Assembly (NCBI RefSeq): GCF_014334335.1
Contig: NZ_JACSEU010000001.1
Span: forward strand, 1,612,001 to 1,676,000
DNA length: 64,000 bases
Direction: 5' to 3'
Origin: Treponema sp. Marseille-Q3903
GTDB lineage: Bacteria; Spirochaetota; Spirochaetia; Treponematales; Treponemataceae
Shown one piece after another: positions 24,777 through 28,882 of this stretch (the stretch's first letter is position 1; the number at the start of each line of letters is the position of its first letter). The notes under the pieces are model-generated. The model saw nothing but the letters and a program-made list of their open reading frames with translations. It was not told the origin of the DNA and did not search any database. A program made the position numbers and the translations under genes.

Positions 24777-24810
24777 TTGAAAATTCCCTTGTTGAAACTA
24801 TATTTAGTGG
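24777..24810 (+). promoter_or_regulatory. nrdR-nrdD promoter with NrdR box
   Basis: TTGAAA (24777-24782), 16-base spacer, TATATT (24799-24804). A 16-base AAACTATATTTAGTGG (24795-24810) covers the -10 and resembles the NrdR box (consensus ACACWATATATWGTGT). Its 12-base core CTATATTTAGTG is repeated exactly at the promoter of the split radical-domain gene at 27552-27563. NrdR would repress by covering the -10 when dATP is plentiful. Confidence 0.72.
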
Positions 24811-24874: not shown

Positions 24875-25348
24875 ATGCGTTGTCCATATTGCGGCAAATT
24901 AGACGACAAAGTTCTGGAATCAAGGACGATGGTAAACGGAGAGAGTATCAGACGTCGTCGTGAATGCCTTTCGTGCGGTTATCGTTTTACAAGCTATGAA
25001 AGAATAGATGAGAAACCGTTCATGGTCATAAAACGCGACGGTCGCCGTCAGCCTTTTGACAGAATTAAACTCGAGAAGGGGATCGAACGTGCTCTCGAAA
25101 AACGCCCAGTCTCTACAAGTATGGTCGAACAGATTTCAAACGATATCGAAGACCTTGCAATAAAAAATGGTCGTGAAACTCGCGAAATTTCAACGACAGA
25201 ACTCGGTGAACTTGTACTCGAAAAACTTTACGCTATCGACAAAGTCGCTTACATCCGTTTTGCATCGGTTTATCGCCATTTTGAAAATCTTGATGAATTT
25301 ATTACAGAAGTAAAAAATATTGAACAGAGGGGAAAAAACAATGAGTGA
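24875..25348 (+). CDS. nrdR: Transcriptional repressor NrdR
   Basis: Nucleotide-sensing repressor of ribonucleotide reductase genes. The 157-residue protein has the N-terminal zinc ribbon (MRCPYCG... and CLSCGYRF, two Cys-x2-Cys pairs) joined to an ATP-cone (about residues 46-135, FMVIKRDGRRQPFDRIKLEKGIERAL). It is full length. Ribosome site GGCGGAAAG. Its last 8 bases overlap the start of nrdD, so the repressor and its target are translated from one message and autoregulation is likely through the box at 24795-24810. Confidence 0.96.
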   Translation: MRCPYCGKLDDKVLESRTMVNGESIRRRRECLSCGYRFTSYERIDEKPFMVIKRDGRRQPFDRIKLEKGIERALEKRPVSTSMVEQISNDIEDLAIKNGRETREISTTELGELVLEKLYAIDKVAYIRFASVYRHFENLDEFITEVKNIEQRGKNNE

Positions 25349-27458
25349 TCAGTCTATTTTTCCGGAATGGAGAAGTTTTCTGGGGAACAGTTCGGATTCG
25401 GAAACAAAAGGTTTTATAAAATCTGTTGTAAAAAGATCCGGAGAGATTGCAGACTATGACCGACTTAAAATTGAATCAGCAATTTGCAAAGCAATCGAGG
25501 CAGTAGAACATCAAAAAGATCCTGACAGAGCTAGCGCCTTAACAGATAAAGTTGAAGAAAAACTTCGCCTTCAGCTTGCCGGAAGCAGAGCGCATTCAAT
25601 TCCTGCAATCGAAGAGATTCAGGATATAGTTGAAACAGTTCTCATCGAAGAAAAACAAGTAGCTGTTGCAAAAGCATACATCCTTTACCGCGCACGACAC
25701 GAAGCTGTCCGAGATGCAAAAAATCTGATGATCGATATAAACAAAACTATGGACGGATATCTTGGTCAAAGCGACTGGCGTGTGAATGAAAATGCAAACG
25801 TAAATTTTTCACTCGGTGGGCTTATTCTTCATAACTCCGGCACTATCACTGCAAATTATTGGCTAAACAATATTTACTCAAAAGAAGTTGCTGAAGCACA
25901 CAAAACAGCTGCTTTCCACATTCATGACCTTTCTATGTTCAGCGGCTACTGTGCAGGCTGGTCTCTTCGTCAGCTTATTGTAGAAGGACTCGGCGGAGTC
26001 CCTGATAAGATAACTTCAACGCCGGCTGCGCATCTTTCTACGCTTGTAAACCAAATTGTAAACTTTTTAGGAATAATGCAAAACGAATGGGCCGGAGCAC
26101 AAGCATTCTCTTCATTTGATACATATTTGGCTCCTTTTATCCGTGCAGATAACCTGACAGAAAAACAAGTCAGACAGTGCATTCAAAGCTATATTTACGG
26201 TGTCAACACTCCAAGCAGATGGGGTTCTCAAGCACCATTTACAAATATCACTCTTGACTGGATTTGCCCCGACGATTTGAAAAATAAAAAAGCAATTGTA
26301 GGCGGCAAAGAACAGTCTTACACATACGGAGATTGTCAAAAAGAGATGGACATTTTAAACAAAGTGTTTATAGAGCTGATGATTGAAGGAGATGCAGAAG
26401 GGCGCGGATTTGCCTACCCTATTCCAACATACAACATCACGCGTGACTTTGACTGGACATCTGACAATGCAAAACTTCTTTTTACGATGACGGCTCAGTA
26501 CGGAACACCGAACTTCCAGAATTTTGTGAACTCCGATTTGAATCCGAACGATGTGCGTTCGATGTGCTGCCGCCTCCAGTTGGACAAACGTGAACTTCGC
26601 CGCAGAGGCGGCGGACTGTTCGGTGCAGACGAATTTACAGGCTCTCTAGGCGTAGTTACGATAAACATGCCCCAAATTGGATATCTCGCTAAAAACGAAA
26701 CGGAATTTTACCGCAGGCTAGATTATCTTATGGATTTGGCAAAAGAAAGCCTTTGTACAAAACGAAAAGTTATTCAAAAACTGTATGACGGTGGATTGTT
26801 CCCATATACGCGCAGATATCTAAAGACTCTTGTAAATCACTTCAACACGATAGGTCTGTGCGGCATGAACGAATGTTGTCTTAATTTTCTCGGTTCTGAA
26901 ATCTCAACGCCAAAAGGTAAAGCTTTTGCAGAAAAAGTCCTTCAGCACATGCGTGAAAGGATGCAGGACTATCAGGAGCAGACAGGAGACCTTTTCAATC
27001 TTGAAGCAACCCCTGCAGAATCTACATCATATCGTCTTGCACGCCACGACAAACAGCAGTTCCCTGATATAATCACAAGCGGAAAAGAAGAGCCGTTTTA
27101 CACAAACTCTTCTCAACTTCCTGTTGATTACACCGCAGATGTTTTTGAGGCGCTCGACCATCAGGAATCGCTACAGACTAAATACACAGGCGGAACGATG
27201 TTTCATGTATACATGGGTGAATCTCTCAAAGACTGGAAAAGCTGTGCAGAGCTTGTAAAAACTATTTCCGACAAGTACAGAATTCCTTTTTTCACAATTT
27301 CGCCGACATATTCAATTTGCCAGATTCACGGGTACATTGCGGGACAGCAGTTTGAATGTCCAAAATGTAAAATTGAAAAAGAAAAGGCGTTGAAAGAAAA
27401 ACTCAAAGTTCTTGAAGCCGAAAAAGAAAAAATTCTTGCGGAACAAGCAAAAATGTAA
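25341..27458 (+). CDS. nrdD: Anaerobic ribonucleoside-triphosphate reductase body lacking the glycyl-radical segment
   Basis: Class III ribonucleotide reductase catalytic chain, 705 residues. An ATP-cone (about residues 22-110) is followed by the ten-stranded barrel region. Candidate catalytic cysteines are Cys204 (GYCAGWSL) and the Cys409-Cys410 pair (MCCRLQLD). The C-terminal metal site is CQIH...CPKC (Cys660, His663, Cys673, Cys676). A complete NrdD continues here into a loop with RVxGY that carries the radical glycine. This protein instead ends with a charged helical tail of 29 residues (KALKEKLKVLEAEKEKILAEQ). The missing loop is the first part of the protein at 27595. The ATG at 25341 follows AGAGGGGAAA. 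An open, in-frame end with its own stop and a 136-base gap argue against a sequencing error. Confidence 0.93.
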   Translation: MSDQSIFPEWRSFLGNSSDSETKGFIKSVVKRSGEIADYDRLKIESAICKAIEAVEHQKDPDRASALTDKVEEKLRLQLAGSRAHSIPAIEEIQDIVETVLIEEKQVAVAKAYILYRARHEAVRDAKNLMIDINKTMDGYLGQSDWRVNENANVNFSLGGLILHNSGTITANYWLNNIYSKEVAEAHKTAAFHIHDLSMFSGYCAGWSLRQLIVEGLGGVPDKITSTPAAHLSTLVNQIVNFLGIMQNEWAGAQAFSSFDTYLAPFIRADNLTEKQVRQCIQSYIYGVNTPSRWGSQAPFTNITLDWICPDDLKNKKAIVGGKEQSYTYGDCQKEMDILNKVFIELMIEGDAEGRGFAYPIPTYNITRDFDWTSDNAKLLFTMTAQYGTPNFQNFVNSDLNPNDVRSMCCRLQLDKRELRRRGGGLFGADEFTGSLGVVTINMPQIGYLAKNETEFYRRLDYLMDLAKESLCTKRKVIQKLYDGGLFPYTRRYLKTLVNHFNTIGLCGMNECCLNFLGSEISTPKGKAFAEKVLQHMRERMQDYQEQTGDLFNLEATPAESTSYRLARHDKQQFPDIITSGKEEPFYTNSSQLPVDYTADVFEALDHQESLQTKYTGGTMFHVYMGESLKDWKSCAELVKTISDKYRIPFFTISPTYSICQIHGYIAGQQFECPKCKIEKEKALKEKLKVLEAEKEKILAEQAKM

Positions 27459-27459
27459 T

Positions 27460-27505
27460 CAACGGAAAAACATCTCAATGTCATTAAAGATTTTGATGTC
27501 CGTTG
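27460..27505 (+). repeat. Inverted repeat after nrdD
   Basis: CAACGGA (27460-27466) pairs with TCCGTTG (27499-27505), and CATC (27471-27474) with GATG (27495-27498), giving a stem with a small bulge directly after the nrdD stop. No T-tract follows, so it is unlikely to be an intrinsic terminator; it may protect the 3' end of the nrdR-nrdD message or mark a processing point. Confidence 0.5.
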
Positions 27506-27529
27506 CCGAAAATTCTAGTGTCATTCAGA

Positions 27530-27564
27530 TTGACAATACAGTGCGTCTACTCTATATTTAGTGT
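27530..27564 (+). promoter_or_regulatory. Promoter and NrdR box of the radical-domain gene and nrdG
   Basis: TTGACA (27530-27535), 17-base spacer, TATATT (27553-27558): a near-consensus promoter. The 16-base ACTCTATATTTAGTGT (27549-27564) matches the NrdR consensus at 14 of 16 positions and starts four bases before the -10, the same register as at the nrdR promoter. A weaker half-site ending TAGTGT lies at 27516-27521. The two parts of the reductase can therefore be transcribed separately but under one repressor. Confidence 0.8.
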
Positions 27565-27594
27565 AGGTATAAAAAAAAGGGAGGAAGTAAAAAT

Positions 27595-28131
27595 ATGGAA
27601 AAGAGAACTCTTGCGCAAGTTGAACAGGAAATCGCAGAGACAAAAGCTGCATTGAACGATGTGCACGGCACAGAGACAGAAGTTTACGCTCGCATCGTCG
27701 GATATTACCGTGCTGTAAAACATTGGAACAACGGTAAAAAAGATGAGTTTTACCAGAGAAAAATGTTTACGCTTGAAGATAGCAAAGCATATGATATCAC
27801 AGAAGCAGACAAAGAATGTGCATGCAGCGCGCCTAAAAAATTGTCTAAACCGGGAAAAATACTTTCCGATATGGAAAACGTATCATACGAAATGTACACT
27901 CGAAAAACATGCCCTAATTGCCCTCAAGTAAAAGATTTTATGTCCCACGTTGATTTAAAAGGTCGCGATATAGACGTAGATACAAAAGAAGGGCTTTCAG
28001 AAGCTGCAAAAAAAGGTATTTTTGCTTCTCCAACTGTAATTTTTTACAATAAAGACGGGGTTGAAACAGCTCGTTGTCACAATGTCGAAGAACTTGAATT
28101 AGTATTCAACAAAGTAGCTGCAATCGCATAA
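27595..28131 (+). CDS. Detached NrdD glycyl-radical domain fused to a glutaredoxin-like domain
   Basis: 178 residues in three parts. Residues 1-25 form a charged helix (LAQVEQEIAETKAAL). Residues 26-62 (TEVYARIVGYYRAVKHWN) match the C-terminal segment of NrdD, with Gly36 in RIVGY as the predicted radical site; this is exactly the part missing from the nrdD product. A linker with Cys75 and Cys77 leads to a glutaredoxin/thioredoxin-like domain (about 95-178) with CPNC at 106-109 and SPTVIFY, which carries the cis-proline. I infer that it docks onto the NrdD body, receives the radical from NrdG and also delivers electrons. Strong ribosome site GGGAGG. nrdG starts one base after its stop. Confidence 0.88.
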   Translation: MEKRTLAQVEQEIAETKAALNDVHGTETEVYARIVGYYRAVKHWNNGKKDEFYQRKMFTLEDSKAYDITEADKECACSAPKKLSKPGKILSDMENVSYEMYTRKTCPNCPQVKDFMSHVDLKGRDIDVDTKEGLSEAAKKGIFASPTVIFYNKDGVETARCHNVEELELVFNKVAAIA

Positions 28132-28132
28132 G

Positions 28133-28882
28133 ATGGCACAACTTTCATTAAACGAACCTGCTGGAGTTCTGGTAAAAACAACTTGCGTTGATTATCCGGG
28201 ACGAGTAGCAGGTTCTTTTTTTCTACGTGGATGTAACCTTCTCTGTCCTTACTGCTATAACAGAGGCTTAGTTTTAAACGAAGAACCTCCGGAACAATTA
28301 AATACTGTTCAAGAGCTGTTTGATCACCTAAAAAAAAGACAAGGAATTCTTTCAGGGGTCGTAATAAGCGGCGGAGAACCACTAATAAATCATTACACAC
28401 CGCTGATAATAAAAGAAGCAAAGCTGCTCGGCTATAAAGTAAAACTCGACACAAACGGAACTTTTCCCGATAAACTGCGCACATTTCTTGACGACAAAGA
28501 ACTCCGTCCTGACTTTATAGCGCTCGACATAAAGACAAGCCCAAAAAGATACGCAACCACAATGTGCCCAAAATTTTCAAGTTATTATGGAAATGAAAAT
28601 TATTTTGAAAAAGTATTGGAACAGTCTGCCGCTTTAGTTGCAAAACTTCCATCAGACTGTAGAGAATGGCGTACTGTTTTAGTCCCTTTTCTTGTCACTA
28701 AAGAAGATATAAAAAATATGGCAGAACTGCTTCCAAAAGATGCGAGCTGGCAGTTCACACAGTTCCAAAACGGCAACTGCATAGACTCGTCATACAATAA
28801 CATATCGCCATACACAGATAGAGAGCTAAAAGAATTGGTAGATTACGCAAAAACGTTTATTCCAAACTCGGAATTACGGTGA
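28133..28882 (+). CDS. nrdG: Anaerobic ribonucleotide reductase activating protein NrdG
   Basis: Radical SAM enzyme that forms the glycyl radical on NrdD. The 249-residue protein has the cluster motif CNLLCPYC (Cys-x3-Cys-x2-Cys), the GGEP motif (VISGGEPL) and DTNGT. It belongs to the longer NrdG type found with Thermotoga-like NrdD rather than the 154-residue E. coli form. It starts one base after the radical-domain gene and should be translated with it, which fits that small protein being its true substrate. Confidence 0.93.
   Translation: MAQLSLNEPAGVLVKTTCVDYPGRVAGSFFLRGCNLLCPYCYNRGLVLNEEPPEQLNTVQELFDHLKKRQGILSGVVISGGEPLINHYTPLIIKEAKLLGYKVKLDTNGTFPDKLRTFLDDKELRPDFIALDIKTSPKRYATTMCPKFSSYYGNENYFEKVLEQSAALVAKLPSDCREWRTVLVPFLVTKEDIKNMAELLPKDASWQFTQFQNGNCIDSSYNNISPYTDRELKELVDYAKTFIPNSELR

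Follow-up and report, generated by a model that had tools for sequence, protein, structure and literature searches.

Can the radical glycine of an anaerobic, class III ribonucleotide reductase (RNR) be supplied by a protein other than the catalytic chain? This question is raised by a locus in a 64,000-nt stretch of the genome of Treponema sp. Marseille-Q3903 (contig NZ_JACSEU010000001.1, positions 1,612,001 to 1,676,000; the whole stretch is hereafter the window), where nrdD, encoding the large chain of such an enzyme, is followed by a small gene and then by nrdG, encoding the activase. The original prediction, made from the sequence, held that the small protein carries the glycyl-radical segment missing from NrdD, fused to a glutaredoxin. 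In all class III RNRs known to us, catalysis and radical storage reside on one chain. We put at roughly 87% the probability that the locus encodes an obligate two-subunit class III RNR, with a radical subunit that is produced as a protein of its own, can be replaced and is in most cases tethered to its reductant.

The family profile is divided exactly between the two products. Of the 562 positions of PF13597 (NRDD), 1–531 match the large protein (573 bits) and 532–562 match the small one (30.7 bits, cut-off 26.2), which bears out the claims that nrdD ends past its metal site without a radical motif and that the next gene supplies the missing segment. The large chain scores well above the cut-offs of PRK08270 (1075.7 bits, cut-off 548) and TIGR02487 (465.6 bits, cut-off 326), also matches PF03477, and contains Cys204, Glu555 and the finger-loop motif MCCR at 408–411, with Cys409, Cys410 and Glu555 invariant in all 16 aligned NrdDs. 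Counted along the printed alignment, Glu555 is the equivalent of Glu495 of the Thermotoga NrdD; this active-site glutamate and the third cysteine (MCCR) are marks of the NrdD2-like subgroup. Given that the radical glycine is not on the same chain, we class the large protein as a split variant rather than as a complete NrdD chain. The radical motif of the small protein, TEVYARIVGYYRAVKHWN, contains Gly36, which is kept in every one of the 66 radical proteins left after de-duplication (a set gathered by similarity to the small protein). Farther along the small protein, residues 99–141 match glutaredoxin PF00462 (25.3 bits, cut-off 22.9), the same domain matches PDB 7c10 (E 6.7e-5), and both cysteines of the CxxC motif are present in all 46 glutaredoxin-bearing radical proteins, in agreement with the predicted fusion of a CPNC glutaredoxin to the radical segment. 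Pfam and NCBIfam scans at E ≤ 1 found no glycyl radical family of the pyruvate formate-lyase (PFL) type on the small protein. Its identification as YfiD/GrcA, the spare part of PFL, was considered and dropped: the profile matched is NRDD, and the partner chain has no glycine segment of its own.

Searches of cellular genomes covered the phylum Spirochaetota (344 genomes). The small protein has matches at E ≤ 0.001 in 181 of them, a count that includes fused chains and radical-domain-only proteins. By rank, these are 26 of 36 genomes in the genus (own genome excluded), 21 of 23 from other genera of the family and 17 of 22 from other families of the order; judging from this spread, the similarity is not due to chance. 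Of 59 relatives searched, a set to which the own genome belongs, 32 show an NrdD match ending at profile positions 531–539 together with a second, separate one over the final ~30 positions, as counted from the match listing, where same-frame pairs such as that of G355 may lack an intervening stop; G363 is a fragmentary 33rd case. The 65 stretches that were fetched (L034–L098) comprise 47 linked split pairs, 7 fused genes (L044–L048, L050, L053), 6 unlinked cases (L039–L042, L080, L082), 4 radical open reading frames (ORFs) standing alone (L049, L052, L054, L058) and one radical-glutaredoxin ORF (L094), so the split recurs across spirochaetes, including treponemes, where the original prediction had suggested looking for the pair. 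In the 45 linked pairs that were tabulated (L036 and L089 left out), the two ORFs occupy all three relative frames (13, 18 and 14 pairs), the gaps lie between −4 and 249 nt, and the small ORF starts with ATG in 44 and GTG in one, mostly behind a Shine-Dalgarno-like site; starts and gaps were chosen by script, and a few are doubtful (L056, L061). A single-base error concealing one continuous frame, which had been named as a possible refutation, is excluded by these frames together with the unlinked pairs. Relative to four close relatives, non-synonymous divergence is 0.07–0.09 for nrdD and 0.13–0.21 for the small gene, with synonymous sites near saturation (0.68–0.81): both genes are under purifying selection. 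Several sequences found along the way deserve mention. The ORF in L094 (genome G203, contig C25:1-4000) has 3.4 kb of upstream sequence devoid of NrdD and is perhaps another unlinked case; a second NrdD with an internal stop (G349:C43:50803-52633) and, close to a full-length NrdD, a 36-aa frame with a radical-like match (G353:C5:15277-15375) are possible remnants of split or fusion events.

The two genes can also be far apart. In eight genomes sampled from the family (six with genus code g2 and two with g3), nrdD and the radical gene lie unlinked on the same contig, at distances from 97 to over 500 kb, the nearest being those of G031 (~97 kb); positions of NrdD and radical gene are, respectively, 1446491 and 919350 in G019, 2279061 and 1971021 in G275, 2282204 and 47023 in G287, and 2151261 and 1861119 in G338. 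In the six of these eight genomes from which stretches were fetched, the radical gene adjoins nrdG and the stretch contains no nrdD. Furthermore, eleven genomes with the split pair have no other RNR detectable with the PF13597 and PF02867 profiles: G231 (99% complete, 2 contigs), G330 (97%, 1 contig), G294 (93%), G194, G272, G281, G212, G261, G149, G182 and G010, the last with the two halves on two contigs. An RNR missed in an incomplete genome is unlikely to be missed again in near-closed ones. PF17975 was absent from all 13 tested genomes, including six of the eleven, a result that adds little given that the control detected only 1 of 14 named genomes. In G010, the only matched radical ORF (L049:3452-3622) adjoins a radical SAM protein (a PHROG match) not identified as NrdG, the sole NrdD being on another contig. 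In four g2 stretches (L039–L042), the radical protein, which lacks glutaredoxin and is unlinked from nrdD, is encoded under an exact NrdR-box-like palindrome, and in three of the four (L039, L040, L042) it ends in a Cys-Pro-Pro tail.

Structure modelling was confined to one pair, that of the close relative L034, which was folded as a single chain in which the translated gap served as a nonsense linker, using alignments with and, as a control, without fused homologues. In both models, the end points of the structural alignment place the radical glycine in register with Gly580 of the T4 enzyme (root-mean-square deviation 2.3–2.4 Å). The Foldseek TM-scores against NrdD chains, 0.43–0.53 by query length, are modest, partly because the linker, the cone and the glutaredoxin do not align. 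The two chains together are thus predicted to form an NrdD fold with the glycyl loop inside the barrel; the concern that the RIVGY loop might be barred from the active site is not borne out in these models. At the cut, helices are predicted at 673–704 (C-terminus of the large chain) and 772–787 (N-terminus of the small chain), with a per-residue confidence (pLDDT) of ~95. Junction lengths point in the same direction: from HGY of the metal site to EVY of the radical motif, there are exactly 18 residues in 6 of 7 distinct fused loci (65 in L050), leaving no room in fused relatives for the added helix of the large chain, whereas in split pairs of this helix type the large chain extends 29–52 residues past HGY and the small chain begins 25–31 residues before EVY. 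We propose these two helices as a likely docking device. Both junction additions are shared by four large viral contigs (L169, L171, L176, L181), the NrdDs of which are only 50–52% identical to that of the window. Taken together, the conservation of the pair, purifying selection on both genes, the unlinked cases, the genomes in which the pair is the sole RNR and the canonical position of the modelled glycine strongly support the proposed two-part NrdD.

We propose that NrdG, encoded next door, would act on the small chain, either free or docked, and install the radical at Gly36. The small-chain loop would then thread into the barrel at the place of T4 Gly580, as modelled on the close orthologue, with the N-terminal helix of the small chain and the C-terminal helix of the large chain keeping the two together. 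From Gly36, if the chemistry of the family applies, a thiyl radical would be generated on Cys409 or Cys410, and nucleotide reduction would proceed with Cys204 and Glu555, after which the tethered CPNC glutaredoxin would re-reduce the oxidised active site. Such a split would turn the oxygen-fragile radical part into a replaceable 20-kDa subunit, possibly with its own NrdR-controlled promoter.

The genes are arranged in the order nrdR-nrdD-small gene-nrdG (Table 1), the 3′ end of nrdR overlapping the start of nrdD by 8 nt. The coordinates and residues given earlier for the metal site, Gly36, CPNC and nrdG, one base beyond the small ORF, were all correct when checked against ORFs and translations. 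The nrdG product scores 129.9 bits against TIGR02495 (NrdG2), just below the cut-off of 131.15.

Table 1. Features of the split nrdD locus, in coordinates of the window
Feature	Position	Strand	Basis or remark
NrdR-box-like site upstream of nrdR, AAACTATATTTAGTGG	24795..24810	+	3 mismatches to consensus
nrdR, RNR transcriptional repressor	24875..25348	+	ORF; named from zinc ribbon and ATP cone in its sequence
nrdD large chain, 705 aa, without radical glycine	25341..27458 (ATG 25341)	+	ATP cone, barrel, MCCR finger loop, metal site
Finger-loop motif Met408-Cys409-Cys410-Arg411	26562..26573	+	Invariant in 16/16 aligned NrdD
Metal site Cys660-X2-His663-X9-Cys673-X2-Cys676	27318..27368	+	C660, H663 and C673 invariant in 16/16; Cys676 not
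Added C-terminal helix of large chain, predicted docking helix	27369..27455	+	Junction lengths and model of L034 orthologue
NrdR-box-like site between nrdD and small gene, ACTCTATATTTAGTGT	27549..27564	+	2 mismatches; 0/200 gap shuffles as good
Shine-Dalgarno of small gene, gggagga	27579..27585	+	Sequence upstream of start; GGAG-type sites before most relatives' small genes
Radical subunit, 178 aa	27595..28131	+	N-terminal helix aa 1-25, glycyl-radical segment 26-60, linker, glutaredoxin ~95-178
Gly36 codon, predicted radical glycine (T4 Gly580)	27700..27702	+	66/66 rows; register from structure-alignment ends
CPNC redox motif of glutaredoxin domain (Cys106, Cys109)	27910..27921	+	Both Cys in 46/46 glutaredoxin-bearing rows
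nrdG activase (radical SAM)	28133..28882	+	Starts one base past small ORF; PF04055

Candidate NrdR sites were sought with an NrdR-box consensus, and the hits are box-like only. The two hits in the window at up to 3 mismatches are not above chance (shuffle mean 1.0; 32 of 100 shuffles with at least two); what speaks for them is their placement, both lying in the two upstream gaps of this operon. Given that the gap between nrdD and the small gene (27459–27594) is, at 136 nt, long for an operon and has an NrdR-box-like site of its own, the radical subunit is likely to have a separate promoter in this genome. A site with at most 3 mismatches is present in 9 of the 25 linked gaps of at least 40 nt. 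All six unlinked radical genes have a box-like site within 250 nt, four of them exact and one weak. At the eight unlinked nrdD loci, such a site lies within 300 nt upstream in one and further upstream, with at most 1 mismatch, in six more, where it probably stands before an nrdR gene; L115 has none. From these sites, the radical subunit appears to belong in its own right to the NrdR regulon in many treponemes, though not in all. Another nrdD of the window genome, L002, has two NrdR-box-like sites near its start (L002:3699 and L002:3742, 43 nt apart, 3 mismatches each).

A second type of split occurs in other spirochaete families, where NrdD mostly ends in a CPYxH-type metal site and is accompanied by a radical-only protein of ~55–87 aa. 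The two types are separated by the N-terminal extension of the small chain (25–31 versus 8–14 residues before EVY, leaving out L056 with its copies, at 43, and L061, at 228, the script-chosen starts of which are doubtful) and not by the tail of the large chain (29–52 versus 29–43 residues after HGY). In a single quick NrdD tree (LG+G4, SH-aLRT support only; 70 of 83 spirochaete rows, 13 duplicates and partials being dropped), the two types fall into separate clades, and fused members occur within or close to each of these. At least four changes between split and fused states are needed, of provisional direction and number; fused L044 and L046 nest inside the helix-type split group (support 80–81), which bears on the number of splits.

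Split NrdDs extend to viruses. In the best 80 of 189 viral-contig loci (L129–L208, several of them near-copies), 58 are fused, 16 are split with a radical ORF (including L160, where it lies 1,968 nt downstream of NrdD), three are truncated without a radical ORF within the flank (L156, L158, L195) and three are unclear (L134, L184, L199). The radical-only ORFs beside truncated NrdDs, e.g., in L191–L194, L197, L198, L200–L202 and L205, encode 77–85 aa and have their own start; by eye, the chains of 18 of the 58 fused proteins in this set end in a glutaredoxin-like CxxC domain. Peptide patterns of the small protein yielded nothing that was confirmed in viral contigs, where it was NrdD alignment that found the radical ORFs. 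Counterparts of the small protein were not found in plasmids, and among phages there is one, in an unannotated record (32% identity); the radical protein of viral contig L193 had no match among annotated phages. In G023, a stand-alone NrdD-type radical ORF (L054:3435-3638) has prophage-like surroundings (SSB, DnaC-like loader, HNH, large terminase), and the only NrdD match is on another contig; by analogy to T4 Y06I and PFL, this ORF might encode a phage-borne radical subunit for the host NrdD. Orphan radical ORFs were also noted in genomes with a single NrdD (L209:2009-2239, L210:1665-1904, L211:2047-2211, L212:2031-2267, L213:1943-2182, L052:3540-3704 and L214:2051 onward), and some extra orphans end in a Cys-rich tail. 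Tentatively, and as a generalization that we entertain without favouring it, class III RNRs might more than once have become, like class I, an alpha subunit with exchangeable radical cartridges: with or without glutaredoxin, several per genome, capable of their own NrdR control, and docked by two helices that arose where the chain was cut. Phages would carry such cartridges for the host NrdD, as spares or to take it over; in one case the cartridge is alone, in a prophage-like stretch that has no nrdD.

How do other explanations of the locus fare? The pair might be the debris of a once-fused nrdD broken in this lineage, with another enzyme doing the work. Indeed, the window genome (98.66% complete) encodes a second, full-length NrdD of the formate type (L002, 746 aa, MGCR finger loop, adjoining nrdG), and many relatives have full-length NrdDs; searches with the PF02867 and PF17975 profiles, the control for the latter being weak, detected no RNR of class I or class II. 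A second intact nrdD, which the original prediction had named as a potential refutation when coupled with decay of this locus, thus exists, but the decay does not: the pair is conserved over several families with its starts and active-site residues, purifying selection is strong, and in the eleven genomes listed above it is the only RNR detected, which makes decay very improbable. That both ORFs yield one polypeptide through frameshifting or stop read-through is hardly credible: such a route could be imagined for the 13 of 45 tabulated pairs that share a frame, but the pairs span all three frames with variable gaps, most small ORFs have their own Shine-Dalgarno-like site and start codon, and the halves are far apart in eight sampled genomes. 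Somewhat less remote, albeit still improbable, is a small protein that is not a constitutive subunit and mainly rescues oxygen-cleaved NrdD, in the manner of YfiD/GrcA and PFL. PFL provides a precedent, and the authors who describe it raise the possibility of spare parts for further glycyl radical enzymes (PMC8683613); in several distant spirochaetes, radical-domain genes outnumber NrdD genes (four matches in G195 and three in G189, one each below the family cut-off; two each in G042 and G020, the weakest again below it), and there is the prophage-like ORF of G023. However, the partner chain has no glycine of its own, its profile match stopping before the radical segment, and where no other RNR is detected the small protein must be a subunit, to which a repair role could be additional.

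A variant of the two-subunit reading, with odds that overlap with it, keeps both chains and makes formate the reductant, the glutaredoxin serving otherwise, e.g., in repair of finger-loop cysteines. We consider this variant unlikely, albeit deserving of real weight. The large chain retains the finger-loop methionine, the absence of which marks thioredoxin-only class III enzymes in PMC9669993, and glutaredoxin is missing from some split lineages; conversely, the Cys-Cys finger loop and the Thermotoga Glu495 equivalent are kept, glutaredoxin is repeatedly fused to the radical domain in both spirochaetes and viral contigs, and in a class I enzyme the glutaredoxin fused to the radical subunit was shown to be a reductant (PMC6187632). 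By analogy, the glutaredoxin may well reduce this NrdD. Several observations weigh against the two-subunit enzyme as we propose it. The window genome also has the intact formate-type NrdD, and Met408 is retained. Glutaredoxin is not required for the split, being absent from the second split type and from the g2 spirochaetes. The sole-RNR argument consists of profile searches of genomes 93–99% complete. NrdR-like boxes are missing from 14 of the 25 linked gaps, those of L084 and L089 reach only 4 mismatches, and the unlinked site of L082 is a weak one, equalled by 9 of 200 shuffles. As to the modelling, MCCR falls within a block whose mean pLDDT is 59, and the following stretch, 411–428, is below 50; the glutaredoxin is poorly predicted in the control (block means 28–51); the object folded was a linker-joined L034 chain rather than two chains; and AlphaFold may recall known NrdD structures. 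What is known here of the two-chain enzyme comes from genes and models.

The two-subunit reading has several consequences. In a one-chain class III RNR, a single oxygen hit destroys an 80-kDa enzyme, whereas here the fragile part would be a separate 6–20-kDa protein, often joined to its likely reductant. If this is true, the glycyl radical of the enzyme is detachable and thus accessible to electron paramagnetic resonance and structural studies; one could test directly whether NrdG needs its radical domain free or docked; nature would have provided a test case for class III reduction driven by a redoxin; and the evolutionary splitting and re-docking of a radical enzyme could be investigated. 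Moreover, to anyone expecting one chain, such NrdDs would seem truncated and their radical subunits unrelated.

In line with the earlier statement that no description of this arrangement was known, we found no account of a separately encoded NrdD radical subunit in the open-access full-text literature, a scope outside which lie most subscription papers and all preprints. YfiD/GrcA is comparable as a small stand-alone glycyl-radical-domain protein that completes the active site of another chain, but it replaces the damaged domain of a full-length PFL and belongs to the PFL family, not to NrdD (PMC8683613). YfiD/GrcA is not known to carry a glutaredoxin. In phages, nrdD can likewise be divided into two or more ORFs, but the available text attributes the breaks to introns, inteins or homing endonucleases, or leaves them unexplained, and describes no separate radical subunit (PMC3653736). 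With the NrdD2-like subgroup (Thermotoga maritima, Neisseria bacilliformis), the treponeme enzyme shares the barrel, the Cys-Cys finger loop, the Glu495 equivalent, the C-terminal metal site, the radical motif and nrdG; it differs in having the glycine on a second protein, the finger-loop methionine kept (SCCR in T. maritima), a Cys3His metal site and extra helices at the cut. Among other RNRs, the split class II enzyme of Pseudomonas aeruginosa also consists of a core and a C-terminal reductive part as two essential polypeptides, NrdJa and NrdJb, but its radical comes from B12, and NrdJb mediates dithiol exchange and carries no radical (PMC4520616). One grx::nrdD fusion is in print, that of Lachnospiraceae bacterium TWA4, which is not a split, and the same source describes Grx::NrdB of Facklamia ignava, a class I protein with a Mn cofactor, where, as proposed here for class III, a glutaredoxin is fused to a separately encoded radical subunit (PMC6187632).

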